Assembly (NCBI GenBank): GCA_036504035.1
Contig: DASXVV010000014.1
Span: 310,001 to 374,000, forward strand
Direction of reading: 5' to 3'
Source: Candidatus Deferrimicrobiaceae bacterium
Lineage (GTDB): Bacteria; Desulfobacterota; Deferrimicrobia; Deferrimicrobiales; Deferrimicrobiaceae
DNA: 64,000 nt
Shown: piece after piece, positions 21,333 to 41,254 of the stretch
How the letters are laid out: every line of letters begins with the position of its first letter
Position numbering within the stretch: position 1 is the stretch's first letter
The notes under the pieces: model-generated
Told to the model about the DNA's origin: nothing
The model's input: only the letters and a program-made list of their open reading frames with translations
The model's database searches: none
Program-made: the position numbers and the translations under genes

Positions 21333-22523
21333 ATGGCAGGCAAGCGGCATCTGTTTACATCCGAATCGGTCACGGAGGGGCATCCCGACAAGCTGGCCGA
21401 CCAGATCTCGGATGCGATCCTCGACGCGTTTTTGGAAAAGGATCCGCTGTCGCGCGTCGCGGCCGAAACCAGCGTGACCACCGGGCTGACGGTCGTGATC
21501 GGCGAAGTGTCCTCGAAGGCGCAGCTGAACGTGGCCCGGATCGCGCGGGACACCATCGCGTCGGTCGGGTATACGAAAGCCGAATACGGGCTCGATGCCG
21601 AGCACAGCGCAGTGCTCGTATCGCTCGACCAGCAGTCTCCGGACATCGCGCAGGGCGTCGATCAGGCATTCGAACAGCGTTCCGGCGGGGGCCATGACGG
21701 ACGGCTGGACGCAATCGGCGCAGGAGACCAGGGAATGGTGTTCGGCTACGCGACCGACGAGACGCCGGAATATCTCCCGACGAGCATCGCGTTGGCGCAC
21801 GGACTGACCCGGAAGCTGGCGCAAGCGCGCAAAAGCGGGGCGATCCCGTTTCTTCGGCCCGACGGAAAGAGCCAGGTAACCGTCGAATTCGAGGACGGCC
21901 GCCCGGTACGGATCGACACGATCGTGGTCTCCACCCAGCACGGTCCCGACGTCGACCTGGATCAAATCCGTAAAGCGGTCATCGACGGCATCGTCACGCC
22001 GGTCATTCCCGAAAACCTGCTCGACGACCGCACGAAATATTTCATCAACCCGACCGGTCGTTTCGTGGTCGGCGGCCCCCACGGCGATGCGGGCCTGACG
22101 GGCCGCAAGATCATCGTCGACACGTACGGGGGCGCCGCGCGTCACGGGGGCGGCGCCTTTTCGGGTAAAGACCCCACGAAGGTCGACCGCTCTGGCGCTT
22201 ACGCGGCAAGGCACGCCGCGAAAAACATCGTGGCGGCAGGGCTGGCGAAGCGGGTCGAGATCCAGGTCGCCTATGCGATCGGCGTCGCGCGACCCGTTTC
22301 CGTCTTCGTCGACAGCTTCGGGACCGGCGTCCTCCCGGAAGAGGAGCTGGCGAGACTGATCACCCGCACCTTCGACCTGCGTCCCGCCGCGATCATCGAG
22401 CGACTCGACCTGCGCAGGCCCATCTACAGGCAGACGGCGGCGTACGGCCATTTCGGGCGGCTGGATCTCGACCTCCCCTGGGAACGGGTCGACTTCGCCC
22501 GGGAACTCGAAAAAATCGCATAG
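21333..22523 (+). CDS. metK: S-adenosylmethionine synthetase
   Basis: A 396-residue cytosolic enzyme making SAM from methionine and ATP. Canonical motifs are all present: [21 protein letters not shown] at the N-terminus, [12 protein letters not shown] (about 129-140), the P-loop-like [13 protein letters not shown] (about 248-260) and [16 protein letters not shown] (about 271-286). Length is normal. It is the first gene of a run continuing with the SDR, the radical-SAM-like protein and the nitrogenase-like genes (gaps of 33, 41, -4, 16 and 1 nt). Supplying SAM to two radical-SAM-like proteins, or recycling methionine sulfur, would both explain its place. Confidence 0.95.
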
Positions 22524-22556: not shown

Positions 22557-23321
22557 ATGTCATTCAAGGACAAGGTCGCCATCGTGACGGGGGCATCCAA
22601 CGGGATCGGGCGGGCGATCGCGCTCGAATTCGCAAGCAAGGGCGCCGGCGTCGTCGTGAACGGGCGCAATGCGGAAAAGGTCCAGGCGGTCGTCGAAGCG
22701 ATTCGCAGAAACGGCGGCACCGCGCTCGGCGTGTCGGCGGATGTCTCCAAAAAGGATCAGGTCGAGCGGCTCGTCCAGTCGACGCTGGGGAATTTCGGAC
22801 GGATCGACGTGCTGGTCAACAACGCCGGCGGCGATAGCAAAACCCGGACGGTCGAAGGGCTGCCCGAGGCGGAATGGGACCAGGTGGTCGACAACAACCT
22901 GAAAAGCGTCTTCCTCGTCTCGCAGGCGGTCATCCCGACGCTCAAGCGGCAAAAAAGCGGGCGGATCATCAACATCTCATCGCAGGCGGGCCGGGCCCTG
23001 ACAATCCTGGCCGGTCCCCATTATGCGGCCGCCAAGGCCGGCGTGATCGGCTTCGGCAAGCAGCTCGCGAAGGAACTCTCGCCGCATGGGATCAACGTGA
23101 ATACGGTCGCTCCCGGCATCATCAACAGCAGCGAGCGTCTCGAGGCCGTATGGGAATCGTTCCCGGCGGAGTCGCGAAAGCGGTTCCTGGAGGACATCCC
23201 GCTGGGACGTCTGGGGGACAACCGGGAAATCGTTGCCACCGTCCTGTTCCTCGCCTCGGAAGGGGCGGGCTACATCACCGGCGCAACCATTGACGTCAAC
23301 GGCGGTCGCTGGATGCTGTGA
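22557..23321 (+). CDS. Short-chain dehydrogenase/reductase, FabG-like
   Basis: A 254-residue NAD(P)-dependent oxidoreductase of the classical SDR type: cofactor motif TGASNGIG (about 12-19), NNAGG (about 89-93), catalytic Ser in NISSQAG and YxxxK in HYAAAKAGV, and C-terminal TGATIDVNGG. It belongs to the 3-ketoacyl-ACP-reductase-like group, whose members act on many carbonyl or alcohol substrates. In this operon it might process the carbon fragment released or used by the nitrogenase-like system; that is inference. Start ATG 22557 follows GGAAAGGAA. Confidence 0.85.
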   Translation: MSFKDKVAIVTGASNGIGRAIALEFASKGAGVVVNGRNAEKVQAVVEAIRRNGGTALGVSADVSKKDQVERLVQSTLGNFGRIDVLVNNAGGDSKTRTVEGLPEAEWDQVVDNNLKSVFLVSQAVIPTLKRQKSGRIINISSQAGRALTILAGPHYAAAKAGVIGFGKQLAKELSPHGINVNTVAPGIINSSERLEAVWESFPAESRKRFLEDIPLGRLGDNREIVATVLFLASEGAGYITGATIDVNGGRWML

Positions 23322-23362: not shown

Positions 23363-24580
23363 ATGTCTGAAGCAAAGCCCGCATACGGACTCAAGGACCT
23401 GTTGTGGAAGGAATTGGAGCTCAAGCTTGACCTCGGCATGAACGGCGTGGCCGTTACCAAGGAAGCGCTGGCGAAGATCCAGCCGGGAACCGTCGCCCAG
23501 GAGCAGGTGCACTGCCTGTTCGAATACGATTTCGACACGCACGATTTCACGCTTCCGTCCGGATTCAACCTGCCGCTGGGGTTGAGCGTTCCCTTCCGCT
23601 GGAACCGGGATGCCGCCCATACAGTCACCGTCGACGGCGAACGGGTCATCCTCGTGAAGAAGGGGAACGAGATCGCCGAGATCGACTTCCATCCCCGCCC
23701 CGCCTTCTACGGGAAGAAGACCTCGGACGGCAAGGAGATGGACACCATCGCCATCCTCAACCAGAAGCGTGCGCTCTTCATCGTCTACAGCAACGAGTGC
23801 TCGTACAAGGAGAAGGGGGAAGACTGCCTCTTCTGCAACATCAACTTCACGAAGGATACCTACGGCGAGAAGGAAGGCATCTTCTGGAAGACGGCCCGCC
23901 AGATCGGGGAAACCGCGGCCGAGGCGTTCCGGGAAGGCATCATCGACCACTTGACGGTCACCGGCGGCGTCATTCCCGAGCGGCGCGAACTGGAATACTA
24001 CCTGGACGTGGCGGAAGAGATCCGCATCCACACCGGGCGCGACGATTTCAACGGCACAGCGACCGTTGCCGCCCCGCTCGACCTGCGCAACCTGGACCGG
24101 CTGAAAGAGGCGGGATACCGCACCACGGCGATGAACCTGGAGCTGTGGGACAAGGGATTCTACGACACGATCTGCCCGGGCAAGGCGCGCGGCGGCGGGG
24201 GGTGGGACCACTGGCTCAAGGCGCTCGAATACGCCGTCGGCGTGTTCGGTCGCGGCCGGGTCCGGTCCAACTTCGTCGCGGGGATCGAGCCCAAGTTCAA
24301 GACGCTCGAGGGGCTCGAATACCTGGCAGAAAAAGGCGTTGTCGGCATCAATTCCGTGTGGATTCCATGCCCCGGTTCCGGGCTCGAAGGCCATCGTTCG
24401 CCCGTACCGGCCTGGTATATGGACCTCGCGTTCAAGCTGGTGCCGATCTGGAAGAAGGCCGGCTTTACGTTCGAGCAGGTCTGCGATGCGAACGCCTCGT
24501 CGGACTACCTGCAGCACGACATCTGGCGGATCGAGGACGAGCTGCTCCCGATATTCGGGGAGGCGAAGGCGGCGTCGTGA
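23363..24580 (+). CDS. Radical-SAM-like protein with CX8CX2C motif (paralogue A)
   Basis: A 405-residue protein. An N-terminal domain of about 135 residues ends with [18 protein letters not shown]; the core begins with SNEC (C146), then C155 and C158, a CX8CX2C arrangement in place of the canonical CX3CX2C. Downstream features fit a radical-SAM barrel: VTGGVIPE (GGE-like), NFVAGIE and a closing [10 protein letters not shown]. The ligand motif and barrel support a [4Fe-4S]-SAM enzyme, but the reaction is unknown. Its last codon overlaps the NifH-like gene by 4 nt, so the two are translationally coupled. A maturase or a partner enzyme for the nitrogenase-like complex are both possible. A paralogue lies at 30749. 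Confidence 0.75.
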
Positions 24581-25452
24581 GCGATAAAGTCGGCAAGCAC
24601 ATCGCCATCTACGGCAAGGGGGGGATCGGGAAGTCGACGACCACCTCCAACATCAGCGCGGCGCTGGCCGAGGCCGGGCTTCGGGTCATCCAGATCGGCT
24701 GCGACCCCAAGAGTGATTCGACCAACATCCTCCGGGGCGGGGAAGAGCTGCCGACGGTGCTCGACACTTTGCGGGAACATGGCAAGGTGCGGCTCGAGGA
24801 TATTTCCGCGACCGGGTACAAGGGCGTCCTTTGCATCGAGGCAGGGGGGCCTGTGCCGGGCGTCGGCTGCGCCGGACGCGGGATCAACGCCGCGGTCGAC
24901 CTGCTCCAGGAGCTCAACCTGTTCGAGACGTTCAAGCCCGACGCCGTGCTCTACGACGTCCTGGGCGACGTCGTCTGCGGCGGCTTCGCCGTGCCGATAA
25001 GGGACGGGATCGCCGACCGGGCGTTCGTCGTGACCTCCTCGGATTTCATGGCGCTCTTCGCGGCGAACAACCTGTTCAAGGCGATCAACAAGTATGCCCC
25101 TTCGGGCGGAGCAAGGCTCGGGGGGGTTATCGCCAACAGCGTCCTGGCCCCTTACGCGACGTCGCTGATCGACGATTTTGCGGAGCGGACCGGCACGCGG
25201 GTCGTCGGCTACATCCCGCGCTCCATCGAGGTCTCCCAGAGCGAACTTTACGGACAGACCGTGATCGAGGCGTCGCCCGGCTCCGAGCAGGCGCAGGTGT
25301 ACCGGAAACTGGCGGGCTTCATCCTCGAAAACGAGGCGAGCTGCATCCCGAATCCGCTGAACGGCCCGGACCTGAAGAACTGGGCACGGGAATGGGGCGA
25401 CCGCATCTTCAAGAGCGAGGCGGGGATCGTCGAAGCAAGCGGCGGGATCTAG
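24577..25452 (+). CDS. NifH/BchL-like Fe protein (ATP-dependent reductase)
   Basis: A 291-residue protein starting with GTG at 24577 inside the previous stop. P-loop [10 protein letters not shown] (12-21), GCDPKSDST (41-49), and both cluster cysteines: C98 in GVGCAGRG and C134 in DVVCGGFA. These ligate the [4Fe-4S] cluster at the homodimer interface in the family. Length and motifs are those of NifH, BchL, CfbC and MarH. It should deliver electrons with ATP hydrolysis to the NifD/K-like pair encoded 16 nt downstream. No nif cofactor-assembly gene is seen nearby, so nitrogen fixation is not supported. Confidence 0.92.
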
Positions 25453-25468: not shown

Positions 25469-26863
25469 ATGTCACGACAAAAAACGGCTCCTGCGAGGGA
25501 AAAACGGATCAGGACGATCGGTGCGTTCATCGGTCCGATCGAGCGATTGATCGACGAACTTCGGGACCACGAATTGCCCCAGCGGATCCGGACGTATTCG
25601 GAAGCGGCCTCGGACGACCTCGTCCAGGCGCTTCGGCTGCTTTCGGGAATCGAGGGCGCGGGGATCATCGTCCACGGTCCGAGGGGTTGCGCCGCTTCGG
25701 TCATCGAAAGCGACCGGCCCGCCAGCGTTGTCGTCACCCATCTGGACGAACGCGACACCATCATGGGATCCGACAGGGCCGTATCGCAAGCGGCCCGGAA
25801 GCTCGTCGCCCGCGCCCGGCCATGGGTCATCCTGCTCGTCGGTACTCCCGTCGTCGCCATCAACAATGACGACATCCGATCGACGGCGAGCGAGTTGTCG
25901 GAGGAGCTGGGCCTCCCTGTCCTTCCCATATTCTGCGACGGGTTTCGATCCCGGTTCGCGGAGACGGGATTCGACGTGGCGTTCCACGGTCTTCTCAAGC
26001 TGATTCCCCGGAGGGACGGTCCTGCCGAAAAGGGGCTGGTCAATCTCCTGTCGATCACGGAAGGAGACGCGGCTGCCGTCCGGATATCGAAGCTGCTCGA
26101 TGGGTTCGGAATCCGGGTCAATCGGTTGCCTGCCGGCGCCGGTTCCGCGCAATTCGAAGGAGCGGGTCGCGCAGTCGCTTCCGTGGGCATCGATCCCGAT
26201 GCAACGAGATACCTGGGGCGCGACCTGGCGTCATCCCACGGAATCCCGTTTCTGGACGTGCCGCCCCCCATCGGAGTCGTGGGGACGAAGGCGTGGCTGG
26301 AAGCCGTGGCCCGGGCTGCCGGCGTGGAGGAGAAGGTGCCGCTGGTCCATGGGGTAGAACTTTCTAATCTTCCGGCAGGGTTCGGTCGGGCGCTGTCGGG
26401 CATGGACGTTTGGATCGGGTTCCCGCCGTCCGTAGCGCTCGCCGCCGCAGGATTGGTGGGAGAGATGGGCGGCCGCGTAAGCGGCTTGTCGGTCGACTAC
26501 GCGGATGCGGGTCATGCCGCGCGGCTGGACGCCCTTGCGGCGAATCACCCGGCACTGCCGGTCCATGCGGGGGTCGGTCAGACGTTCGAGGCGGTCAACC
26601 TGCTGCGACGGAATCCGCCGGCGCTATACATCGGAACGCCCGATCGCGCAGCCGTCGCAACCCGCGCCGGCATTCCGGCCGTGGGCATCCTGCCCGACGA
26701 GTTGCTGGGATATCGGGGCGTCTGCGCCCTGGTCCGGCGTGCCGCGAAAGCGCTGAAGAATCGCGGGTTCGCGGACAGCCTTTCCGGTGTGGCGTCTTCG
26801 AGGTACCGGGACGGCTGGCTTCGCAGGAGCCCCGACTGGCACATCAAGATGGAGGTGAAGTGA
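25469..26863 (+). CDS. NifD-like catalytic subunit of a divergent nitrogenase-like reductase
   Basis: A 464-residue member of the oxidoreductase nitrogenase component 1 family. Of the three P-cluster cysteines of NifD only the HGPRGC position is kept (C74). The first is absent from the N-terminus, and the third, before NNDDI (GDDI in NifD), is Thr126. Around the FeMo-cofactor ligand the segment before SSHGIPF reads VGIDPDATRYLG with no Cys, and the region expected to hold the homocitrate-side His is LLGYRGV. A nitrogenase-type cofactor is therefore unlikely. With the K subunit's three cysteines, one bridging [4Fe-4S] cluster is predicted. The gene runs 1 nt before its partner. Subunit naming (D versus K) rests on order and these motifs. 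Confidence 0.82.
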   Translation: MSRQKTAPAREKRIRTIGAFIGPIERLIDELRDHELPQRIRTYSEAASDDLVQALRLLSGIEGAGIIVHGPRGCAASVIESDRPASVVVTHLDERDTIMGSDRAVSQAARKLVARARPWVILLVGTPVVAINNDDIRSTASELSEELGLPVLPIFCDGFRSRFAETGFDVAFHGLLKLIPRRDGPAEKGLVNLLSITEGDAAAVRISKLLDGFGIRVNRLPAGAGSAQFEGAGRAVASVGIDPDATRYLGRDLASSHGIPFLDVPPPIGVVGTKAWLEAVARAAGVEEKVPLVHGVELSNLPAGFGRALSGMDVWIGFPPSVALAAAGLVGEMGGRVSGLSVDYADAGHAARLDALAANHPALPVHAGVGQTFEAVNLLRRNPPALYIGTPDRAAVATRAGIPAVGILPDELLGYRGVCALVRRAAKALKNRGFADSLSGVASSRYRDGWLRRSPDWHIKMEVK

Positions 26864-26864
26864 C

Positions 26865-28154
26865 ATGGCCCATCCGCTTTATCGGTCTCGAACCGGATGC
26901 GCCCTGCACGGCGCCATCCGGGCCGCGCGGGCCATTCCTGGCGTGGTGCCGGTGGTTCATTCGACCGCCGGGTGCAGCGCCCCACGGGAATTCGGAAGCG
27001 GGCTGCCCTCGACCGGCATCGTCGAGAAGCAGGTGGTTTTCGGCGGATCGTCGCGCCTCCGGGAACAGTTGAAGAACGCGCTGAAAGTGGTCTCCGGCGA
27101 CCTGTACGTCGTGCTCGGCGGTTGCGCGCCCGAACTGGTGGGAGACGACATCCCGGCCATGACGAAAGAGGCCGTGGAACAGGGATATCCGGTCATCTGC
27201 GCGGCGTCCGCCGGTTTTCGCGGGTCGGCTTTCGACGGGTACCGGTTGTTTCTAAAGGCGCTGATCGAGAATCTGCCGGATGCCCCATCAGGGGGGAACG
27301 ACAAGATCCCCGGCCTCGTCAACCTGCTCGGGATCGTCCCCGGAGGCCACGCGACCTGGGAAGGCGATCTTGCGGAGCTCGGTCGAGTCCTTGAACGAAC
27401 GAATCTCAAGGCCAACCCGGTATTCGGATATGGCGGAGGGATCGACGGCGTGCGAGGACTTGCGCGGGCGCAGCGGAGCGTCGTTTTTTCACCGTGGGGG
27501 CTCGACGCAGCCAGGCTGCTCGAAGCGCGCTTCGGAATTCCGTGGACCGATGCCGGGGCGATCCCGGTCGGTGCGGCCGAAACCGCCTCATTTCTTGAAG
27601 TGCTGGGTCGGGAGGCGGGACTTGGCGCGGACGCCCTCGAAGAACGATTGTCCGACGAAGCGCGACGGGAGCGTCACTTCCTCGACCGGCTGCCCGATAC
27701 GACGTTCGGTTACGACTTCCAGAAGGATTTCGCCATCGTCGGACCCGGGTCGCAGGCGCTCGGCGTCGCCCGCTTCCTGACCGCAACGCTCGGGTGGCTG
27801 CCGTCGCTGGTCGTTGCCACGGACAATCCCCCCGAATCGGCGCGCCAGGCGCTGGATCGTGCCGTGTCCGGAATCCTGCCCGATTTCGGGTCGAAACTGC
27901 TGTTTTGCGAGGATGCCGGGGAGATCCGGGACGCGATCGTGGACCGCGATGTGGAATTCGTGATCGGAAGCTCGCTGGAGCGCGAGGCGGCGAACGCGTT
28001 GAATATCCCGCTGCTCGAGTGGTCGCCTCCGGTCAGAGACGGACTGATCCTGGAAACGGGTTTCGCCGGCTTCCGCGGCGGTCTCTCCCTCGTGGAAGCG
28101 CTGAGCCGCGTGATCCTGTCGTTCGATCAAGTCGATCCCCGCGCACGCCGATGA
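26865..28154 (+). CDS. NifK-like subunit of a divergent nitrogenase-like reductase
   Basis: A 429-residue component 1 protein keeping all three P-cluster-type cysteines: C12 (RTGCALHGA), C37 (HSTAGCS) and C87 (LGGCAPELVGDDI). The VVFGGSSRLREQL segment (57-69) is the family's usual stretch between cysteines two and three. It lacks the long N-terminal extension of true NifK. Mid-protein FSPWGLDAARLLEARFGIPW is also typical. Together with C74 of the D-like partner this gives four thiolate ligands for one cluster at the interface. It ends the metK-led run; a 156-nt spacer follows. Confidence 0.85.
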   Translation: MAHPLYRSRTGCALHGAIRAARAIPGVVPVVHSTAGCSAPREFGSGLPSTGIVEKQVVFGGSSRLREQLKNALKVVSGDLYVVLGGCAPELVGDDIPAMTKEAVEQGYPVICAASAGFRGSAFDGYRLFLKALIENLPDAPSGGNDKIPGLVNLLGIVPGGHATWEGDLAELGRVLERTNLKANPVFGYGGGIDGVRGLARAQRSVVFSPWGLDAARLLEARFGIPWTDAGAIPVGAAETASFLEVLGREAGLGADALEERLSDEARRERHFLDRLPDTTFGYDFQKDFAIVGPGSQALGVARFLTATLGWLPSLVVATDNPPESARQALDRAVSGILPDFGSKLLFCEDAGEIRDAIVDRDVEFVIGSSLEREAANALNIPLLEWSPPVRDGLILETGFAGFRGGLSLVEALSRVILSFDQVDPRARR

Positions 28155-28310: not shown

Positions 28311-29642
28311 ATGCGTGCTTTCAGGTTCATGAACGGGTTGCTGGTATTGCTGGTCCTTCTCGCCCCGATCTCCAGGGCAAGGGCGGACGAGGTGCCGCCT
28401 TCGGACGGGCCTCCCTCCACCGGTGCGGAAGCGAACGAGCGGACGGAATACGTGACGCAGACCGACCTGCAGGGGGTCCGGGCGGAGCTCGAGACGCTGC
28501 GCGAGCAGTGGACGCGAACCCTCGACAAGAACACCGCGCAGACGTCGCGGCCTCTCACGGTCGGCGGCATCGCGCAGGTCCGCTACACCGCGTCCGAAAA
28601 CAAGAAGGTCAACAACAGCTTCGACATCGCGGCGCTGATCCTCAACTTTCGCGGAAACCTGCGGAAAGACTACGAGGAGGGGCGGAACGTCGACTACCTG
28701 TTCAGCTTCGTAAGCCCCAGCGGTGCGAATGCCAACGGCAGCGCGGATTTCACCGTCCGGCCGCTGGATGCGTACATCAGTTATTTCCTCCTCCCTTCCC
28801 TCGACTTCGAAAAGCCGCTGCTGAGCATCACGCTCGGTCAGCAGAAGAAGCCGTTCGGACTCGAGGCGCTCGCGACCGAGGAGAAGAAGCCGACGATCAA
28901 AAGCGCGCAGAGCGCCACGACGCTCGGCCTCGATCCCCGCGACATCGGGCTGGTCGTCAAGGGTGACCTGTTCCCGTATTACGACGCCGGCTTCCGGTAT
29001 CGCGTGCCGTTGGTCGAATACTCGGTCGGCCTGCTCAATGGGAGCGGCCCCAACGCGACCGACGACAACGGGCACAAGGATGTCTCCGGCCGCGTCGTGC
29101 TCAACGCGCCCGTCGACTACAACTCCATCTTCCGCGGCCTTTCGCTCGGCGGCTCCGCTTATCTCGGACGCCAGAACGTCGGGGTCGGGACGGCGGTGGC
29201 GCAACAAGGCGCGAAGAACCGGTACGGCGTCGACCTGGCTTACGTGAACACCCCGGTCGGCTTCACCGCGGAATATGTGCGCGGGGAGGACGGGAAGCTC
29301 CTGTCCGGCACGAGTGTGGACAACGCCGTATTCGGAAAGATCCAGAGCGAGGGATTCACGTTCACGGTCTTCTACAACTTCGGCGAGCAGTTCCTCCGCG
29401 GCTTCAAGGCGCAGGACCGCTACGACGACTGGTACCCGCTCACCTTCCAGCCCTTCGTCCGATTCGACCGGTGGGATCCGAATCTCAAGGCGGGCGGCGA
29501 CCGGATCGACATCACCACACTCGGCTTCAACTGGTTCTTCGCGGAAACGACCAAGCTGCAGCTCAACTACAACAACAAGAAGCAGCAGGGCGTGAATGTC
29601 GCGAACAACGAGTTCCTCGCGCAGTTCCAGTTCGGATTCTAG
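28311..29642 (+). CDS. Outer-membrane porin, phosphate-selective porin O/P type
   Basis: A 443-residue protein with signal peptide (to about ARA, residue 24), a short coiled region with TDLQGVRAELETLRE, then a beta-barrel with alternating hydrophobic strands and a terminal Phe (QFQFGF), the outer-membrane sorting signal. QQKKPFGLEALATEE and PRDIGLVVKGD are typical of the OprO/OprP-like family. These porins pass anions such as phosphate, or sulfonated and carboxylated organics. Standing directly before a sulfonate-type ABC binding protein, it is probably the outer-membrane entry for the same anionic sulfur compound. Confidence 0.82.
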   Translation: MRAFRFMNGLLVLLVLLAPISRARADEVPPSDGPPSTGAEANERTEYVTQTDLQGVRAELETLREQWTRTLDKNTAQTSRPLTVGGIAQVRYTASENKKVNNSFDIAALILNFRGNLRKDYEEGRNVDYLFSFVSPSGANANGSADFTVRPLDAYISYFLLPSLDFEKPLLSITLGQQKKPFGLEALATEEKKPTIKSAQSATTLGLDPRDIGLVVKGDLFPYYDAGFRYRVPLVEYSVGLLNGSGPNATDDNGHKDVSGRVVLNAPVDYNSIFRGLSLGGSAYLGRQNVGVGTAVAQQGAKNRYGVDLAYVNTPVGFTAEYVRGEDGKLLSGTSVDNAVFGKIQSEGFTFTVFYNFGEQFLRGFKAQDRYDDWYPLTFQPFVRFDRWDPNLKAGGDRIDITTLGFNWFFAETTKLQLNYNNKKQQGVNVANNEFLAQFQFGF

Positions 29643-29681: not shown

Positions 29682-30722
29682 ATGAAAAAAATAGTCGCTT
29701 CGATCCTGTCCATCGCAATCACCGTCCTCGTGGCGAGCACCATCGCAGCCGTCGCCGCGGAAAAGAAGCCGAAGACGATCTACCTCGGCTCCGCCTACAG
29801 CGGCGGCTTCGGCAAGCCGTACTCCGGCGGCGTCATCGGCATCGTCCACGCGCGGGCGCTGCTGGAAGAAGAGTTCAAGAAGGACGGCATCAAGATCGAG
29901 TGGTTCTTCTTCAAAGGCGCCGGCCCCGCGACGAACGAGGCGCTCGCGAACAAGACGATCGACTTCGCCTACATCGGCGACCTGCCCGCGATCGTGGGCA
30001 AGGCGAACGGCCTGAAGACGAAGTTCATCGCCCCCGGATCGAAGTGGACCCATGTCTACATCAGCGTCCCGAACGACTCGAAGATCACGACCATCAAGGA
30101 ACTGAAGGGAAAGAAGGTCGCGATCGCCAAGGGAACCAACGCCCAGCTGACTTTCGCCCGGATCCTCGAGGCGAACGGCCTGACGGAAAAGGATCTCAAG
30201 CTCTACAACCTGGGGCTGGCCGACGGCGGTTCCGCCCTCAAGACGAAGGACATCGATGCGGCCGTCTACTGGACCGATCAGCTGAACCTGCGCACGCTGG
30301 GCGTTTCCAAAATCATCTATTCGACGAAAGAGGCGCCGGTCGACTGGCGGAACACCGGCGGATTCTACGTCACCGAGGCGTTCGCAAAGCAATACCCCGA
30401 GATCACCAAGCGGGTGGTCAAGGCCTACGTCAAGGCGGCCCGCTGGGGGTCGGAGGAAAAGAACAAGGAAGAGCTGTTCCAGATCGGCGTCAAGGCCGGC
30501 ACCCCGCTGGCGGCGATCCGCGAGGAATTCGCGGGGCGTTCGGCAAAGGACATCAACAGCATCTCCTTCGACGATGCTTACGTGAAGCATTACGTCGAAG
30601 GCGCCGTGTTCGCCAAGGAACGGGGACTCATCAGGAAGACATTCGACGTCCACGCGTGGATCGACAGGAGCTACCTCGACGAGGCGCTGCGAGACCTCAA
30701 GCTTGAAGGGTACTGGAAATAA
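29682..30722 (+). CDS. ABC transporter substrate-binding protein, SsuA/TauA (NMT1) type
   Basis: A 346-residue periplasmic binding protein with signal peptide ending AVAA (about residue 26). It has the usual two-lobed pattern: GAGPATNEALANKTIDFAYIGDLPAIVG, then KELKGKKVAIAKGTNAQ and DIDAAVYWTDQL. This is the aliphatic sulfonate/taurine/nitrate family. It begins the transport run, but its permeases and ATPase lie four genes downstream (33724-36095), which still forms one co-directional unit. Substrate cannot be read from sequence; sulfonate or another organosulfur anion is inferred from family and context. Confidence 0.82.
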   Translation: MKKIVASILSIAITVLVASTIAAVAAEKKPKTIYLGSAYSGGFGKPYSGGVIGIVHARALLEEEFKKDGIKIEWFFFKGAGPATNEALANKTIDFAYIGDLPAIVGKANGLKTKFIAPGSKWTHVYISVPNDSKITTIKELKGKKVAIAKGTNAQLTFARILEANGLTEKDLKLYNLGLADGGSALKTKDIDAAVYWTDQLNLRTLGVSKIIYSTKEAPVDWRNTGGFYVTEAFAKQYPEITKRVVKAYVKAARWGSEEKNKEELFQIGVKAGTPLAAIREEFAGRSAKDINSISFDDAYVKHYVEGAVFAKERGLIRKTFDVHAWIDRSYLDEALRDLKLEGYWK

Positions 30723-30748
30723 CCCTCAACAAGGAAAGGGGAACGGAA

Positions 30749-32023
30749 ATGTCGTTGATCCTCCGCAAGGAATCGCTGTTCAGGGAATTGTCCTTCGACC
30801 AGGTGGTCGAGAAGCACGCAGACGTTTCACCTTTCGTCATCCTGAAGCTCGACCTCCAGCGGCGCGGCATCCGGTTGACGGAAGCGGCGGCGGCGGCCGT
30901 CGACACGCCGTACTACCGGTATGCCCGCTCCAACGTCGTCCACGTCAAGAACCAGGACGGGAAGCCGCTGGTCTTCCCCGGCCCGGTCATTCTCCGCGAC
31001 GGGACCACGGTCCTCACCTCTCCGGTTCCCGGCCAGTTCGAGAACCCGTACACGGTCGACTTTGCCGACGGGAAATACTGGGCGGTGGACGCCGGCCGCC
31101 GCGTCGACGAGATCGACTTTACCCCGAGGCCCGATTATTACGGCAAGCTGACCAGCCGCGGGATCCCGATGGAATCGATCGCCAACGCGAGACCGCAGCG
31201 CCTCGACATCTCTCCCTACCGGTATTGCCACTACTGGGACACGCAGGACCAATGCAAGTTCTGCGCGTTCTTCACCGACCTCAAGGCGCAGCGGCAGGCC
31301 GCGGGAGACGACTTCGAGCGGATCGTGCATCCGGAGGACATCTACGAGACGGTGCGCGAGGCGCTCAAGGAGCCGGGGCGCATCTCCCAGATCAACCTGA
31401 CCGCGGGCACCGACTACTCGGGTGAGATCCCGTTCGAAAAGGAAGTGGACCGGTACGTCGAAGTGCTCCAGGCGATCGGGCGGAACTTCAAGACGCGCCG
31501 CTTTCCGAGCCAGCTGATCGCGCCCGCCTATTCGAAGCGGCAGGTCAAGCGGCTGTACGACGAGACAGGCCTGTCGTCCTACTGCCCCGACATCGAGGTC
31601 TGGGACGAGAAGCTGTTCAAGTGGATCTGCACCGGCAAGGAAAAGTGGTTCGGGCGCAACTACTGGATCCAGAGCGCGCTGGACGCGGTCGAGATCTTCG
31701 GGAAGGGCAACGTCTACACGAACTTCGTCGCAGGCATCGAGTTCGCGCAGCCGCACGGCTTCACGAGCATCGAGCAGGCGCTGGATTCCAACTTCGAGGC
31801 CGCCGACTTCTTCGCGAAGAACGGCGTTGTCTACCTGAGCCTTGTCTGGGTCCCGTGGAAGAGCACCGCCTTCGCGGGGCAGAAGCAGCCGCCGCTCGAA
31901 TACTACGTCCGCCTGGTGAAGGGACTGGTCGAGATTCGCAGGAGCCACGGCCTGGCTTCCGACAACGACGATTTCAAGCATTGCGGAAACCACGGCGACA
32001 GCGACCTTGAACGACTCAACTGA
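30749..32023 (+). CDS. Radical-SAM-like protein with CX8CX2C motif (paralogue B)
   Basis: A 424-residue paralogue of the protein at 23363. The shared N-terminal module ends EIDFTPRPDYYGKLTSRG against [18 protein letters not shown] in the other copy. The cluster motif has identical spacing: C160, C169, C172 (CHYWDTQDQCKFC). Both contain NFVAGIE in the barrel. It lies 26 nt after the binding protein and 17 nt before the flavin-binding protein. Having two paralogues in one island, one coupled to the Fe protein and one inside the transport run, suggests consecutive or complementary steps on the imported compound. Chemistry is unknown. Confidence 0.75.
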   Translation: MSLILRKESLFRELSFDQVVEKHADVSPFVILKLDLQRRGIRLTEAAAAAVDTPYYRYARSNVVHVKNQDGKPLVFPGPVILRDGTTVLTSPVPGQFENPYTVDFADGKYWAVDAGRRVDEIDFTPRPDYYGKLTSRGIPMESIANARPQRLDISPYRYCHYWDTQDQCKFCAFFTDLKAQRQAAGDDFERIVHPEDIYETVREALKEPGRISQINLTAGTDYSGEIPFEKEVDRYVEVLQAIGRNFKTRRFPSQLIAPAYSKRQVKRLYDETGLSSYCPDIEVWDEKLFKWICTGKEKWFGRNYWIQSALDAVEIFGKGNVYTNFVAGIEFAQPHGFTSIEQALDSNFEAADFFAKNGVVYLSLVWVPWKSTAFAGQKQPPLEYYVRLVKGLVEIRRSHGLASDNDDFKHCGNHGDSDLERLN

Positions 32024-32040
32024 CGAAAGGGATAATCGAC

Positions 32041-32508
32041 ATGGCAAAGCTGCCTGAAGAACTGGTGAACCTGCTCAGGGATATCGAAAGCATCAAGGTC
32101 GTGGCGACCCTGGACGGGGAAGGAGCGCCTCACGCCGTCGTCAAGGGCTCGCTGACGACGTTGGACGGCGAGACAATCGCCTTCAACGAGGGGTTGGAGA
32201 CGAACATCAGCAACAAGAACCTGGTGCGCAGCATCTGGTTCGACAGGAAAGTCGCGATCAACGTGACCAAGGGTCCGGTCAGCTACCAGATCAAGGGGAA
32301 GCCGTACCGGTACCTGATCACGGGATCCATCTTCAAGCAGTTTCTGCTCAAGGCGAGGGAGCGGCGGGGGCCGACGGCGGATATCGCGGGCGTCTGGATC
32401 GTCACCCCCGAGGAGGTCCGCAACGAATCGCCGGGCTTCCGGCGGAAACAGGCGGAGGAGGAACGGGGCCAGTTCCACAGCCACCTGGACCTGCTGCGGG
32501 CCGAATGA
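32041..32508 (+). CDS. Pyridoxamine 5'-phosphate oxidase-like flavin-binding protein
   Basis: A 155-residue single-domain split-barrel protein. The N-terminal half, VVATLDGEGAPHAVVKGSLTTLDGETIAF, is the usual PPOX-like start, and NLVRSIWFDRKVAINV follows. Such proteins bind FMN, haem or F420 and act as small reductases or cofactor-binding partners. Position between the radical-SAM-like protein and the MFS transporter suggests that it belongs to the same pathway, perhaps as an electron carrier. Length is normal for the family. Confidence 0.75.
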   Translation: MAKLPEELVNLLRDIESIKVVATLDGEGAPHAVVKGSLTTLDGETIAFNEGLETNISNKNLVRSIWFDRKVAINVTKGPVSYQIKGKPYRYLITGSIFKQFLLKARERRGPTADIAGVWIVTPEEVRNESPGFRRKQAEEERGQFHSHLDLLRAE

Positions 32509-32509
32509 A

Positions 32510-33727
32510 ATGGCCGAAACCCGCACGAAAAGCATGCTCCATCGCTTCATGCTGCTCTCGATCCTAGGCGGCATGGGCATGGGCGTGTCCCAGATCGCGG
32601 TGACGCTCTATGCGGTCAGCCTGGGGGCCGATGCTTCGCAGATCGGCCTTATCGGCGGAATCCAGGGGGTGGGTTTGCTGCTCACGGTCCTCCCCGTCGG
32701 TTTCCTAGTGGACCGTTTCGGCCCCCGGGTCGTCTTTCTGTTCGGCGGGCTGATGAGCGCGCTGATCTACCTGGCGTTCCCTTATGTCCGGACCGCGCAG
32801 CTCCTGATCGCATTCGTGGCGGTGATCGGGTTCTTCACGTCGTTCCGGTTCATCTCCATGAGCAGCGTGTTTCTCGAGTTCCTCGAATCCTGCGGGAACG
32901 AGAAGGCCGGGTGGCAACGCGGTTCGCATTCGACCGGGCTGGTATTTCTCGGCCCGATGGCGGGCGCTTTCCTGGCCCGGCATGCCGGATACACCGCGAC
33001 GTTCTACGCGGTCAGCGGGTCGCTGGTTGCCCTGATTCTGGGAGCAGCCGTCGTGTTTCCCGGCCGGCCAAATGAACCGTCCCGGCATTCCTTTCGCGAA
33101 ACGCTGGCGCACATCGGGGGGATGTTCAAGGACCGGAACCTGGTCGAGGCGTCGCTTGCCGAGGGGTTGGCGCTGGCGACATTTTCATGCTTCAACGCCT
33201 TCATCGTCGTCATCGCAATCCGGACTTTCGGGTTATCGGCACAGGGCGCGGCCATGTTCGTCTCGCTGGAAGGAATCGTCTTCATCGCGACGTTGTTCTC
33301 GCTCTGGCGACTGGTGGCAAGGCTCGGGCAGCGCCGCTTCTACTTGTTGAGCATCGGGATCCTGGTTGCCGGCCTGTCCCTTCTCTCCATTTCCCGACAT
33401 CCGGCGTTTCCGGCCGCGGGGACGGTGCTGGTCGGGATCGGGCTCGGGATGTTCAACCTGGTCAACGTGACGCGGATCGGCGCCACGCCGGGGCGAAAGG
33501 GAAAGGTGGCGGGGCTTTTCGCCTTGTTCACGGTCGGCGGATCGATCCTGGGGCCGATTGCCGGCGGCTATATCGGAAAAGCTTTCGGCCCGGGAGCGAT
33601 CTTCCCGGCATTCATCCCCTTGTTCCTGGCGTTCGGGCTCCGGCTTCACCTGCGGGGAGACGACGAGATTTCGTTCGGCGGCACGCCCTCGCGGGTCGAC
33701 CACGGCGCGGAAGGAGCTGCCTCGTGA
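32510..33727 (+). CDS. Major facilitator superfamily transporter
   Basis: A 405-residue protein with about twelve transmembrane helices and the MFS loop GFLVDRFGPRVVFLFGG (about 64-80), which is the family's signature between helices 2 and 3. A charged loop of about 30 residues separates the two halves. It begins 1 nt after the PPOX-like gene and overlaps the following permease by 4 nt (GTGA). With an ABC importer in the same run, MFS could export a by-product, for instance the desulfurised carbon skeleton; this is speculation. Confidence 0.85.
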   Translation: MAETRTKSMLHRFMLLSILGGMGMGVSQIAVTLYAVSLGADASQIGLIGGIQGVGLLLTVLPVGFLVDRFGPRVVFLFGGLMSALIYLAFPYVRTAQLLIAFVAVIGFFTSFRFISMSSVFLEFLESCGNEKAGWQRGSHSTGLVFLGPMAGAFLARHAGYTATFYAVSGSLVALILGAAVVFPGRPNEPSRHSFRETLAHIGGMFKDRNLVEASLAEGLALATFSCFNAFIVVIAIRTFGLSAQGAAMFVSLEGIVFIATLFSLWRLVARLGQRRFYLLSIGILVAGLSLLSISRHPAFPAAGTVLVGIGLGMFNLVNVTRIGATPGRKGKVAGLFALFTVGGSILGPIAGGYIGKAFGPGAIFPAFIPLFLAFGLRLHLRGDDEISFGGTPSRVDHGAEGAAS

Positions 33728-34506
33728 AAATCGCGAAACGTTCGAAATGGGGCGACGCCGCGCTGGGGCTGATCGTCCCCCTGCTGCTGGTCCTGTTCTG
33801 GGAAATCGCCTGCCGGCTGGAACTGTTTCCGCCCCAGATCGTCATTCCGCCGCGGCTGGTGCTCGCCACATTTCTGGAACTGCTGCGCTCGGGAGAGCTG
33901 GCGGACAACCTCAAGATCAGCCTGATCCGGGTTCTCCTCGGATTTGTCCTGGGAACCGTCTCCGGATTCCTCCTGGGAGCCGGAATGGCGATATCGCGGC
34001 CGGTGGAGCGGTACCTATTACCTCTGTTCACCGGCATCCGGCAGGTTCCGGTCCTCGGCTGGATACCGTTGCTGATGATCTGGCTCGGGATCGGGGAAAC
34101 GTTCAAGGTCGTCTTCATCTCGCTGGGCGCCTTTTATCCGATGACGGTCAATACGTTCGATGGATTTCGCGGCGTGCCGGTCTGTTACGTCGAAGTGGCC
34201 CGCGCATTCGGATTCCGGCGGCGGAAGCTGCTGCTGCGGGTCCTTCTGCCGGCGGCACTCCCCTCGATCTTCACGGGAATTCGGATCGCCCTGAACATGT
34301 CCTGGATGCTGGTCATCGCGGCCGAGCTGGTCGCGGCGGGGGAGGGGATCGGGTACACGATCACCTGGGGGCGGCAACTATTCCAGATGGATATCGTCAT
34401 CATGGGCGTCATCCTGATCGGCTTGATCGGCTACGGAATGAATCATCTCGTCGGCTCCGCGGAAGCGGCCTCGCTGCACTGGCGGCGCCCGTTCCAGGCG
34501 AAATGA
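33724..34506 (+). CDS. ABC transporter permease, SsuC/TauC type (first)
   Basis: A 260-residue protein starting with GTG at 33724 within the MFS stop. About six transmembrane helices. It carries the BPD_transp_1 EAA loop EVARAFGFRRRKLLLRVLLPAALP (about 157-180). GIRQVPVLGWIPLLMIWLGIGE is the hallmark of sulfonate/taurine/nitrate permeases. A second, different permease follows, so the transporter probably has a heterodimeric membrane part, unlike the homodimeric SsuC of E. coli. Confidence 0.85.
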   Translation: MKIAKRSKWGDAALGLIVPLLLVLFWEIACRLELFPPQIVIPPRLVLATFLELLRSGELADNLKISLIRVLLGFVLGTVSGFLLGAGMAISRPVERYLLPLFTGIRQVPVLGWIPLLMIWLGIGETFKVVFISLGAFYPMTVNTFDGFRGVPVCYVEVARAFGFRRRKLLLRVLLPAALPSIFTGIRIALNMSWMLVIAAELVAAGEGIGYTITWGRQLFQMDIVIMGVILIGLIGYGMNHLVGSAEAASLHWRRPFQAK

Positions 34507-34520
34507 ACCGGGAGAATACG

Positions 34521-35312
34521 ATGCGAAAAATCAAGGCAGCGGGTCATAAGGGACTGGACATCGGCCGGGGATTGTTGCTTCCGTCCCTGATTCTCTCGGT
34601 CTGGTGGGTCTGTTCGAGCAAAGGCTGGCTGTCGCCGAAACTGTTTCCTTCCCCGGCGCTGGTATTCAAGGAGCTCAAGGTGGTCATCGGCGACGGCAGC
34701 CTGCTGGAAAATCTCGGGATCAGTTTCGCGAGAGTGCTCAAGGGGTTTGCACTCGGGGCATCGGCGGGATTCATCCTCGGCTCGGTCCTGGGTCTTTCCA
34801 GGACCGCGGAAAGGCTGATCGGGCCTGTCTTCAACGCGATCCGCCAGGTTCCGCTCCCCGCCTGGATCCCGCTGCTCATCCTGGTCAGCATCGGCGAGTT
34901 GTCCCGGGTTGCGTTCATCGCGATCGGCGCATCCTACCCCGTGGCCTTGAACACCTTCGAGGGGATCCGGAGCGTCCGAATGGACCTTCTCGAAGTCGGG
35001 CGCGTGTTCCGCTTCGACCGCGCGAAGCGATTCCTGTCGATCATCCTGCCGTCGGCGTTCCCGACGATCCTCACCGGGTTGAAACTGAGCCTCGGCGTTT
35101 CGTGGACGCTTGTCGTCGGGGCGGAAATCTTCACGACCTCGGGCGGCGGGATCGGGGAAATGATGTGGGTGGGAAGGGAACTCTCCAATATCGAGCTCGT
35201 CGTGATCGGGATCGTGACGATCGCGCTGGTCGGCTTTGCGATGAACCTCCTGATCGCAACGCTCGAGAGAACGTTCTCCGTCTGGAGAAAAACGATGACG
35301 CAGGGAAGGTGA
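34521..35312 (+). CDS. ABC transporter permease, SsuC/TauC type (second)
   Basis: A 263-residue permease homologous to the preceding one: IRQVPLPAWIPLLILVSIGELS and the EAA loop LEVGRVFRFDRAKRFLSIILPSAFP. An earlier in-frame ATG (34503) overlaps the previous stop, but GGGAG at 34510-34514 favours 34521. It ends 6 nt before the ATPase gene. The two permeases differ throughout, indicating an old duplication with separate roles. Confidence 0.84.
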   Translation: MRKIKAAGHKGLDIGRGLLLPSLILSVWWVCSSKGWLSPKLFPSPALVFKELKVVIGDGSLLENLGISFARVLKGFALGASAGFILGSVLGLSRTAERLIGPVFNAIRQVPLPAWIPLLILVSIGELSRVAFIAIGASYPVALNTFEGIRSVRMDLLEVGRVFRFDRAKRFLSIILPSAFPTILTGLKLSLGVSWTLVVGAEIFTTSGGGIGEMMWVGRELSNIELVVIGIVTIALVGFAMNLLIATLERTFSVWRKTMTQGR

Positions 35313-35318
35313 GTAGCC

Positions 35319-36095
35319 ATGGGAACGGCCGGAACGTTGCAGATCCGCAAGTTGAACAAGAAATTCGTCGTGCAGGGCCGCGAAAACAAGGTCCTTGAAG
35401 ATATCAACCTCACGATCGAGCCCGGGGAGTTCATCAGCATCATCGGCCTGAGCGGCTGCGGGAAAACGACGCTGCTCCGGCTGGTCGTCGGGCTCGAATC
35501 CGAATACGAGGGGGATATCCTCCTGGATGGCCGGAAGCTCAACGGCCCGAGCATCGACCGCGGGATCGTGTTCCAGGACCATCGCCTGTTTCCGTGGCTA
35601 AACGTGGAAAAGAACGTGGCGCTCGGCATCGTCGGCAAGAACGACGCGGCGAAGCGGGAGACCGTATTGCGCCACATCGAGCGGGTTGGACTCAAGGGGT
35701 TCGAGAAAAACTACCCGCACCAACTTTCCGGCGGAATGTCGCAGCGGGCCGCCATCGCCCGGTCGCTGGTGAACCAGCCCGAGATCCTGTTGTTGGATGA
35801 GCCGCTCGGGGCGCTCGACGCGTTGACGCGGATGTACATGCACAAGGAGCTGGAAAGGATCTGGCGGCAGGAAAGCATCACGATGATCATGGTGACGCAC
35901 GACGTCGAGGAGGCGGTGTATCTCTCCGACAAGATCATCGTCATGTCGGCCCATCCGGGGAAGGTGCAGAAGATCATCCCCGTTCCGCTGGCCCGCCCCC
36001 GCGACCGCGCCAGCTACGATTTCGGCCTCGTCAAGGAACAGGTGCTCGAGGAATTCCATCTCCAGTCCGAAAGACATTTCAGCTACGCGATTTGA
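35319..36095 (+). CDS. ABC transporter ATP-binding protein, SsuB/TauB type
   Basis: A 258-residue ATPase: Walker A GLSGCGKTT (about 44-52), Q-loop VFQDHRLFPWL, signature LSGGMSQRAAIARSL, Walker B ILLLDEPLGALDA, and His in MVTHDVEEAVYLSD. The QDHRLFPWLNVEKNV form is typical of sulfonate, taurine and nitrate importers. It completes the importer begun by the binding protein at 29682. A promoter-operator follows its stop, so the next gene starts a new transcription unit. Confidence 0.88.
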   Translation: MGTAGTLQIRKLNKKFVVQGRENKVLEDINLTIEPGEFISIIGLSGCGKTTLLRLVVGLESEYEGDILLDGRKLNGPSIDRGIVFQDHRLFPWLNVEKNVALGIVGKNDAAKRETVLRHIERVGLKGFEKNYPHQLSGGMSQRAAIARSLVNQPEILLLDEPLGALDALTRMYMHKELERIWRQESITMIMVTHDVEEAVYLSDKIIVMSAHPGKVQKIIPVPLARPRDRASYDFGLVKEQVLEEFHLQSERHFSYAI

Positions 36096-36152: not shown

Positions 36153-36184
36153 ATGGAGTCAATTCGTGATCGAGGGGCATGGGA

Positions 36185-37138
36185 ATGGCCGACCGGAACG
36201 ACAAACCGAAGATCGACCTGGGAAACCTGAAATCGGGCGGGTTCATCAAGGAGCGCGGGAAGGATCTGTTCACGATCCGGCTGCGCGTCCCCGGCGGGCG
36301 CATGTCGTTCGACCGGCTGAAGAAGATCGCCGAGGTCGGCGAGAAATATGGCGGCGCGTTCGTGCACCTGTCCGTTCGCCAGTCGATCGAGCTGATCAAT
36401 GTCGATTTCCGTCACTTCGACGCGGTGGTCGCGGAGCTCGGCGAAGCCGGCCAGAAGGTGGCCTCGTGCGGCGCCCGGGTGCGCGTGCCGGTCGCGTGCG
36501 GCGGTTGCGAATACAACCCGAACGGGCTGGTCGATACCCAGCAGGCGGCGCTCGACGTCGATGCGCACCTGTTCGGCACCCCGACCGACCACCACAAGTT
36601 CAAGGCGGCGTTCGCCGGTTGCCCGTTCGACTGCCCCAAGTCCGCCACCAACGATGTCGGTTTCCAGGGCGCGCTCTGGCCGACGCTCGATCCGGACGCC
36701 TGCATCTCCTGCGGCCTGTGCGCCAAGAATTGCGAGCCGAAGGCGATCGTCATGGGCCCGGACAAAAAGCCCGTCTTCGACCCGGAGGCGTGCATCTACT
36801 GCGGAGACTGCGTCAAGGTCTGCCCGACCTCCGCCTGGACCGAAGAGAAGCGGGGCTACACCGTGCGGATCGGCGGGAAGTGGGGGCGATCCCCGCTCGT
36901 CGGGACGCTCTTCGCGAAGTTCCTCCCTGAATCCGAAGTGATCCCGTTTCTTGAGGCCGTGCTTGCTTGGTACAAGGACAAGGCCTCGAATCTCGGAAGG
37001 ATTCGTATCGGTGAGATCATCCGCCGGGAAGGGGTCGAGTCTCTGCTGGGCCACCTCCGTGATCGATTCCCAGCGTATATAGTGGAGGGGACGATCCCCC
37101 CCCGGAAGATCGAGACCCAGATCGGGAAGGAGAGGTGA
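36185..37138 (+). CDS. Compact siroheme sulfite reductase with inserted two-cluster ferredoxin
   Basis: A 317-residue protein of the nitrite/sulfite reductase superfamily. Siroheme-cluster cysteines lie at about C105/C108 (VACGGCEYNP) and C146/C150 (AGCPFDCPKS), followed directly by two CX2CX2CX3C ferredoxin motifs (C173-C183 and C203-C213), then the rest of the reductase fold. This is the single-subunit, AsrC/Dsr-like small type, not the large CysI. Located with APS reductase, ATP sulfurylase and sulfate permease genes, it is the likely sulfite-to-sulfide enzyme of assimilation here. The start at 36185 has better spacing from GAGGGG than the ATG at 36179. Confidence 0.85.
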   Translation: MADRNDKPKIDLGNLKSGGFIKERGKDLFTIRLRVPGGRMSFDRLKKIAEVGEKYGGAFVHLSVRQSIELINVDFRHFDAVVAELGEAGQKVASCGARVRVPVACGGCEYNPNGLVDTQQAALDVDAHLFGTPTDHHKFKAAFAGCPFDCPKSATNDVGFQGALWPTLDPDACISCGLCAKNCEPKAIVMGPDKKPVFDPEACIYCGDCVKVCPTSAWTEEKRGYTVRIGGKWGRSPLVGTLFAKFLPESEVIPFLEAVLAWYKDKASNLGRIRIGEIIRREGVESLLGHLRDRFPAYIVEGTIPPRKIETQIGKER

Positions 37139-37433: not shown

Positions 37434-38465
37434 ATGAAACCGAAGACGATTGTCGCCGCGGCATTGTCCGCACTGTTGCTGGGAGGCGCCTGGGCCGGAG
37501 CAGCTTCGGCCGCAAGCGAGACCACGTTGCTCAACGTTTCCTACGACCCGACGCGGGAGCTGTACCAGGACTTCAACACCGCTTTCGCCGCCCATTGGAA
37601 GAAGACGACCGGGCAGGACGTGACCTTCAAGCAGTCTCACGGCGGGTCCGGGAAGCAGGCCCGGTCGGTCATCGACGGGCTGGAAGCCGACGTCGTCACG
37701 CTGGCACTGGCCTACGACATCGATGCGATCCAGGAGAAGGGGCTGATCAAAAAAGGATGGCAGAAGCGGCTCCCGAACAACAGCGCTCCGTACACCTCCA
37801 CTATCGTCTTCCTCGTGCGCAAGGGGAATCCGAAACAGATCAAGGATTGGGGCGATCTCGTCAAGCCCGGCATTTCCGTGATCACCCCGAACCCCAAGAC
37901 CTCCGGCGGGGCCCGCTGGAACTACCTGGCCGCGTGGGGATACGCGCTCAAGCTGAAGGGCGGCAACGACGCCAAGGCCGAGGCGTTCGTCAAGGCGCTC
38001 TACAAGAACGTCCCCGTGCTCGATTCCGGCGCCCGCGGGTCGACGAACACCTTCGTCCAGCGCGGGCTGGGCGACGTCCTGCTCGCCTGGGAGAACGAGG
38101 CGTTCCTCGCGATCAACGAGCTGGGCAAGGACAAGTTCGAGATCGTGACTCCTTCGGTCAGCGTCCTTGCCGAACCGCCGGTCACCGTGGTCGACTCGGT
38201 GGTCGATCGGCGCGGAACCCGCAAGATCGCGGAGGCTTATCTGAAATATCTCTACACCCCCGAAGGGCAGACCATCGCCGCGAAGCACTACTACCGCCCG
38301 ACCGACAAGAAGATCGCCGCTGCGTCCTCCAAGCTGCCCAGGCTCAAGCTGTTCACCGTCGACCAGCTGTTCGGCGGCTGGCAGAAGACGCAGAAGCGGC
38401 ACTTCGCCGACGGCGGGATCTTCGACCGGATCGCGGTGAATGCCGCGGCTCCGGCGGCGAAGTAA
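37434..38465 (+). CDS. sbp: Sulfate/thiosulfate ABC transporter binding protein
   Basis: A 343-residue periplasmic protein with signal peptide ending ASA (about residue 26). Family motifs include [43 protein letters not shown] and [19 protein letters not shown], which form the sulfate-binding site region in Sbp/CysP. It opens the sulfate importer operon sbp-cysT-cysW-cysA, behind its own operator. Whether it prefers sulfate or thiosulfate cannot be told from sequence. Confidence 0.92.
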
Positions 38466-38493
38466 GCGCGATAAGGAAAGCGGGAAACCGGAC

Positions 38494-39324
38494 ATGGCCG
38501 CAAGCGGGCATCGACACAACGTGCTACCGGGGTTCGGCCCGGCGCTCGGGTACACGATCTTCTACCTGAGTCTCGTCGTGCTGATCCCGCTCTCCGGCCT
38601 GGCGATCCGGTCGGCGTCGCTGACCTGGACGCAGTTCCTCGCGGCCGTCGCCGCCCCGAGGGTGATCGCTTCTTATCGCGTAACCTTCGGGGCGGCGATC
38701 GCGGCCGCGGGCGTCAACACGGTTTTCGGATTGCTCGTCGCGTGGGTCCTCGTCCGTTACCGGTTTCCCGGCCGGAAGATCGTGGACGCCCTGGTCGACC
38801 TGCCCTTCGCGCTGCCCACCGCGGTGGCGGGCATCACGCTCGCGACGCTCTATTCGCAGAACGGCTGGATCGGGAAGCAGCTGGAGACCGCCGGGATCAA
38901 GGTCGCCTACACTCCGCTGGGGATCGTGGTGGCCATGGTGTTCATCGGGCTGCCGTTCGTCGTCCGGACGGTCCAGCCGGTCCTCGAGGATCTCGAGGCC
39001 GAGCTCGAGGAAGCGGCCGCCTGCCTCGGGGCGAACCGTTTCCAGACCTTCACCCGGGTCATCTTTCCGGTCCTGCTCCCGCCGCTTTTGACCGGCTTTG
39101 CGCTGGCCTTCGCCCGGGCGGTGGGGGAATACGGCTCCGTCATCTTCATCGCGGGAAATTTGCCGATGGTGTCCGAGATCACGCCGCTGCTCATCATCAC
39201 GAAGCTGGAGCAGTACGACTATGCCGGGGCGACCGCCATCGCGATGGTCATGCTGCTCTTCTCCTTCGCGTTGCTTCTCGGCATCAACCTGCTCCAGAAA
39301 TACTCGCGCCGTTTTTCGGGATAA
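38494..39324 (+). CDS. cysT: Sulfate ABC transporter permease CysT
   Basis: A 276-residue permease with about six helices. [24 protein letters not shown] and the EAA loop [26 protein letters not shown] are typical of CysT/CysU. Near the C-terminus [13 protein letters not shown] is the sulfate-permease signature. It follows the binding-protein gene by 28 nt and precedes CysW by 10 nt. Confidence 0.92.
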
Positions 39325-39334
39325 GGAGGGCATC

Positions 39335-40159: not shown

Positions 40160-40163
40160 AACG

Positions 40164-41234: not shown

Positions 41235-41254
41235 CCTACCGAAAGGAGATTCGC

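Follow-up and report, generated by a model that had tools for sequence, protein, structure and literature searches.

The window considered here, a stretch of 64,000 nucleotides from the genome of a Candidatus Deferrimicrobiaceae bacterium, carries a nitrogenase-like D-K gene pair which, likened to the Rhodobacter capsulatus enzyme by its published residue positions, appears to be a divergent member of the isethionate-reductase (Isr) kind, a reading to which we give a probability of about two in three. Sequence comparison confirms that its pattern of four cysteines, three in the K-like and one in the D-like subunit, is real rather than due to chance, and that it is kept throughout a nitrogenase-like family. 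Neither the residue pattern nor the prediction of a single cluster is new, since a 2024 study of isethionate reductase had already reported both. IsrBHDK is the isethionate reductase of R. capsulatus (Morimoto et al. 2024, PMC11423573). Anaerobic growth on isethionate requires all four isr genes as well as SsuCAB, as seen in mutants, the seven isr and ssu genes confer isethionate growth on R. sphaeroides, and IsrDK co-purifies and displays an Fe-S spectrum (PMC11423573). IsrD has a single conserved cysteine, Cys74, the other two P-cluster positions being Arg and Pro/Ser; IsrK has Cys12, Cys37 and Cys99; IsrDK retains neither FeMo-co ligand, and the authors inferred for it one [4Fe-4S] cluster on four cysteines and no complex cofactor (PMC11423573).

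The window pair shares with Isr the one D cysteine (Cys74), the three K cysteines and the lack of NifD-type cofactor ligands, and the third D cysteine, replaced by Pro/Ser in IsrD, is replaced by Pro127 in the window. In both loci, a non-NifB radical SAM gene lies directly upstream of H and a SsuABC sulfonate transporter is present (window positions 29682-36095). The window locus differs from that of R. capsulatus in also having MetK, a sulfite reductase and a second radical SAM gene beside the Isr-type genes. From the sequence we infer the cluster type, the absence of a cofactor and the reaction of the window enzyme. The features are listed in Table 1.

Table 1. Genes and residues of the window locus, with positions counted from the first nucleotide of the window.
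Feature	Position	Strand	Basis
Second S-adenosylmethionine synthase (MetK), first gene of the run	21333..22523	+	TIGR01034, 567 bits
Short-chain dehydrogenase (SDR), in the run	22557..23321	+	PF00106
IsrB-type radical SAM protein (B), CX8CX2C	23363..24580	+	NF045502, 430.7 bits (cut-off 125)
IsrH-type (NifH-like) Fe protein, GTG start, P-loop, cluster Cys98/Cys134	24577..25452	+	PF00142, E=1.9e-96
IsrD-type (NifD-like) subunit, 464 aa	25469..26863	+	PF00148 (Oxidored_nitro, Pfam), E=2.5e-51
D Asp49 codon	25613..25615	+	Position of MarD Cys66 / NifD Cys62; gapless profile alignment
D Cys74 codon	25688..25690	+	MarD Cys91, NifD Cys88; sole P-cluster cysteine remaining in D
D Pro127 codon	25847..25849	+	Position of MarD Cys158
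D Asp242 codon	26192..26194	+	Cofactor-Cys position (MarD Cys270); D/C/S/T/N in the family
D Thr390-Pro391	26636..26641	+	Position of MarD Arg428-His429 (MAR cofactor His)
IsrK-type (NifK-like) subunit, 429 aa	26865..28154	+	PF00148 (Oxidored_nitro), E=3.2e-66
K Cys12 codon	26898..26900	+	MarK Cys32; kept in 30/30 family K
K Cys37 codon	26973..26975	+	MarK Cys56; kept in 30/30 family K
K Cys87 codon	27123..27125	+	MarK Cys121; kept in 30/30 family K
Outer-membrane porin (Porin_O_P)	28311..29642	+	PF07396
SsuA-type sulfonate-binding protein	29682..30722	+	TIGR01728, 172.8 bits, above cut-off
Second radical SAM protein, same family as B, CX8CX2C	30749..32023	+	NF045502, 211 bits
PNPOx-like flavin protein	32041..32508	+	PF01243, weak, under cut-off
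MFS transporter	32510..33727	+	PF07690
Two SsuC-type permeases, approximate starts	33717..35312	+	SsuC/TauC match for the first; relatives' permease genes match
SsuB/TauB-type ATPase	35319..36095	+	Family match; 77-82% identical to Chlorobium relatives
Siroheme-type sulfite reductase with ferredoxin domain (AsrC-like)	36179..37138	+	PF01077, PF03460, Fer4
sbp, cysT, cysW, cysA, cysH, cysD, cysN (sulfate assimilation)	37434..44545	+	sbp, cysH and cysD by NCBIfam; others from ORFs

Family membership and the cluster site

With the window D protein as query, 84,980 species genomes yielded 19 relatives, in Chlorobiaceae and Geobacter, and genomes from the phylum of the Chlorobium relative yielded 10 more, giving a family of 30 members with the window copy. 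In the D tree, window D lies within a clade of single-cysteine proteins (support 100/100), and in the K tree window K lies within the counterpart clade (98/92), in both cases outside methylthio-alkane reductase (MAR), so that the separation from MAR proposed in the earlier note holds. The same query found no other family member in a sample of 395 genomes of the phylum to which the window belongs, and hence the locus is rare in that phylum. A search for Isr-type pairs returned only MAR-like and nif-like pairs on plasmids and none on viral contigs. On the Treponema saccharophilum plasmid pTS2, two D-K pairs of MAR-like type, each with all its cysteines, are grouped with Fe-protein, radical SAM, NifX-like, cysteine synthesis and ABC transporter genes.

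The closest solved chain is MarD for window D (E=9e-39, search against solved structures) and MarK for window K (E=6e-64), and the D and K labels are therefore sound; the coordinates of both genes had been given correctly in the earlier note (Table 1). The D gene directly follows the NifH-like gene, and nearly all relatives have the same D-K junction, made up of a stop codon, one base and ATG. In a predicted fold of the read-through D-K fusion of a Geobacter homologue, the halves match MarD and MarK with TM scores of 0.77-0.79 and 0.82-0.85; with a pTM of 0.51 and low confidence in the cluster region, this model supports the fold of each half, not the complex.

Ligand positions were mapped by D and K profile alignments to MarDK (9FMG/9D9U) together with a joint alignment. 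The P-cluster of MAR is held by MarK Cys32, Cys56 and Cys121 and MarD Cys66, Cys91 and Cys158, and its active-site cluster by MarD Cys270 and His429 (PMC12552129). Window D contains cysteines only at 74, 156 and 419, and window K at 12, 37, 87, 112 and 348. As had been proposed, K Cys12, Cys37 and Cys87 occupy P-cluster positions, and Cys74 is the only P-cluster cysteine left in D; Cys74, like the three K cysteines, is kept in all 30 members. Since these four correspond to P-cluster ligands of MAR, they surround one cluster site by homology. The third K cysteine stands at 87 in the window and at about 100 in relatives (99 in R. capsulatus IsrK) because window K lacks a 13-residue loop after Gly44.

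At the two other D positions, the cysteines are replaced throughout the family. MarD and 21 further D proteins of MAR-like, other nitrogenase-like and NifD/NifE types all have Cys at the cofactor-Cys site as well as at each of the three P-cluster sites. At the third site, the family has Pro127 in 30 of 30 members, and the other D proteins have Cys in 22 of 22; the earlier assignment of Thr126 as the replacement was one residue off, MarD Cys158 aligning with Pro127, and residue 126 is T, N, S or G across relatives. At the first site, Asp49 is found in all 29 family proteins that cover it, the 30th being truncated. The published description gives Arg for this position, with NifD as reference and in a stretch that is hard to align (PMC11423573), as against Asp49 by the MarD alignment; the invariant Arg39 and Arg41 precede it by 8-10 residues.

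Standing at the first P-cluster position, Asp49 could supply an oxygen ligand. Taken further, this would mean that a P-cluster-like cluster persists, with more than one cubane or with three K cysteines, one D cysteine and Asp49 as ligands, a reading that we regard as unlikely. The gapless alignment of an invariant Asp49 on MarD Cys66 is in its favor, as is the known Asp ligand of BchB in DPOR (PMC11423573). Even so, every member has Pro at the third D position, leaving the D half one ligand short, and the neighboring Asp50 is likewise invariant, so that the conservation may be structural.

Window D has neither Cys nor His at the cofactor-ligand positions (D242 and T390-P391), the MAR-type histidine included, in agreement with the earlier note. 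The absence of a cofactor is thus well supported by alignment for the window copy, and less so family-wide, given Cys242 and His393: of the first 20 members examined, 9 have Cys at position 242, and His393, in a GD..H motif, is present in every relative covering the region and is Arg in the window. These residues, together with NifB in all 19 family genomes tested, could speak for a family that binds a large cofactor through non-MAR ligands, of which the window copy would be a derived form without them. We consider this quite unlikely, as position 242 varies freely (C/D/S/T/N), His393 lies two residues off the position of the loop-I His429 of MAR, and B is not NifB-like. The occurrence of NifB in all 19 genomes cannot by itself separate cofactor-bearing from cofactor-free readings, and it is accounted for by the nif genes of the organisms, as shown for the window genome, which carries a Mo-nitrogenase NifDK (contig 6) and a nif set with NifB. 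The earlier proposal of one bridging cluster and no cofactor is thus partly supported, by the four cysteines at one site and the missing cofactor ligands of the window copy; in the family as a whole, the cofactor site gives a more mixed picture.

MAR and the window enzyme have a common fold and a three-component plan, and MarDK are the closest solved structures, which might suggest that the window enzyme is itself a MAR variant. This is highly improbable, and MAR was rejected as an identification: of its eight metallocluster ligands four are missing, namely two of the six P-cluster cysteines and both cofactor ligands (Cys270, and His429 of Arg428-His429); the window proteins fall outside the MAR clade, and the radical SAM protein comes from another family.

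The P-cluster of nitrogenase consists of two half-cubanes bridged by alpha-Cys88 and beta-Cys95, and the four cysteines retained in the window are presumably the full ligand set of its K half. As aligned, the window pair thus retains the K half of the P-cluster and DPOR the D half, so that the two layouts mirror each other. An all-cysteine 3+1 cluster is also known in COR (BchYZ) and NifEN. In DPOR, the D-like BchN contributes three Cys and the K-like BchB one Asp (PMC11423573), whereas the window layout is reversed and all-cysteine, with three in K and one in D. The earlier analogy to a DPOR-like electron path therefore calls for revision, the layout being a mirror of DPOR and not a copy. DPOR has one [4Fe-4S] cluster at the interface, no large cofactor and its substrate in a cavity, and the same is predicted for the window enzyme. 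DPOR (BchNB) itself was rejected, in view of the reversed cysteines and scores of 49 and 95 bits against BchN and BchB equivalog cut-offs of 420 and 490. Mo-nitrogenase shares the superfamily and the K-subunit cysteines with the window pair; of the NifD residues, window D is without two of the three P-cluster cysteines and without the FeMo-co ligands, Cys275 and His442. Mo-nitrogenase was rejected as well, since in the MarD-based alignment D242 stands where Cys275 would be and the MAR-type position has no His; the nifD model gives window D 37 bits against a cut-off of 654.

Divergence of the window copy

The window D and K proteins are only 41% and 43% identical to those of relatives, which are 65% and 69% identical among themselves, while window H has about 80% identity to the H proteins of relatives, nearly as high as the 83% that these average among themselves. 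Among positions invariant in all other members, 30 of 117 in D and 34 of 120 in K are changed in the window, 64 in total, compared with four in the next most divergent member. The changes in K include NTP114-116 to ASA, QDPF161-164 to GHAT, His56 to Gln and His123 to Phe, besides the missing loop; His393 of D has become Arg. All cluster-site residues are kept. Taken together, this suggests that the pocket has changed and that the path of the electrons is conserved. With about a quarter of the invariant sites changed, however, the fact that six cluster-site residues are retained does not by itself argue strongly for selection.

With 64 invariant positions lost, the substrate or even the activity of the window enzyme may differ from that of its relatives. 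Tentatively, and at less than even odds, the window enzyme could be an Isr-type reductase retargeted to another sulfonate or organosulfur compound, in which the cluster cysteines, Asp49 and Pro127 are frozen and the pocket is rebuilt, Asp49 acting as a previously unrecognized ligand or gate. It is improbable, in our view, that window D and K are instead decaying or changing function freely under little catalytic constraint. Their low identity beside that of H, the 64 changed positions with the 13-residue deletion, and a third-position GC of 0.76, against 0.81-0.89 in the other reliably measured genes of the run, would fit such relaxation; yet both frames are intact, the start/stop spacing is retained and so are all cluster residues.

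Gene neighborhood and a possible route for sulfonate sulfur

B belongs to the NF045502 family and not to NifB, and it is 50-53% identical to most B genes adjoining relatives' HDK. MetK, of which the window genome has another copy elsewhere, stands at the head of the run, and on a Geobacter contig a MetK 80% identical to the window copy adjoins a B-type radical SAM gene, hinting at a dedicated SAM supply. In several relatives an SDR gene lies between B and H, and it is only about 32% identical to the window SDR. The pair formed by the second radical SAM gene and the PNPOx-like gene is kept in Chlorobiaceae and Geobacter, where it lies close to HDK or to separate Ssu transporters. Many relatives (L090, L091, L092, L094, L096, L098, L100) have 2-6 IsrB-family radical SAM genes in tandem, adjoining one HDK set or SsuABC alone, with the order porin-ssuA-ssuC-ssuC-ssuB-B-B-B-B-MFS in L100. 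Such tandems suggest either that one reductase is served by several of these proteins, or that the radical SAM enzymes are specialized, for several substrates. In Geobacter sp. OR-1 (L062:11730-13999), genes of the nucleoside phosphorylase and xanthine/uracil permease families directly follow K and possibly serve to recycle deoxyadenosine from radical SAM chemistry.

The surroundings of HDK, with SsuABC, a sulfite reductase, sulfate uptake and CysHDN, form a sulfur-assimilation island which fits the assimilation of sulfonate sulfur with sulfite as product. The sulfite reductase scores 137.6 bits with TIGR02912, under the cut-off of that model, and a search of the window genome for xsc gave nothing above cut-off.

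On the preferred Isr-type reading, SsuABC would import a sulfonate, and IsrH, an ATP-driven Fe protein, would supply the D-K heterotetramer with electrons. At the D-K interface, a single [4Fe-4S] cluster, with K Cys12, Cys37 and Cys87 and D Cys74 as predicted ligands, would hand these on to the substrate, bound in the cavity that is occupied by a large cofactor in nitrogenase and MAR. Reductive cleavage of the C-S bond would then release sulfite, which the neighboring sulfite reductase would convert to sulfide. The radical SAM protein would be needed for the system. The substrate of the divergent window enzyme may be isethionate or another sulfonate.

The nitrogenase-like family probably serves bacterial sulfur recovery from sulfonates. 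The occurrence of the cysteine pattern in all 30 members lends support to the view that Isr-type enzymes represent a third way of arranging clusters in the nitrogenase superfamily, in which only the K half of the P-cluster is present, the reverse of DPOR, and the divergent window copy offers a natural comparison for the residues that set the substrate. If metal analysis agrees, these enzymes would cleave the C-S bond of a sulfonate with no large iron cofactor of the kind that MAR employs to break C-S bonds; this, if true, would bear on the need for that cofactor and on the evolution of the P-cluster.
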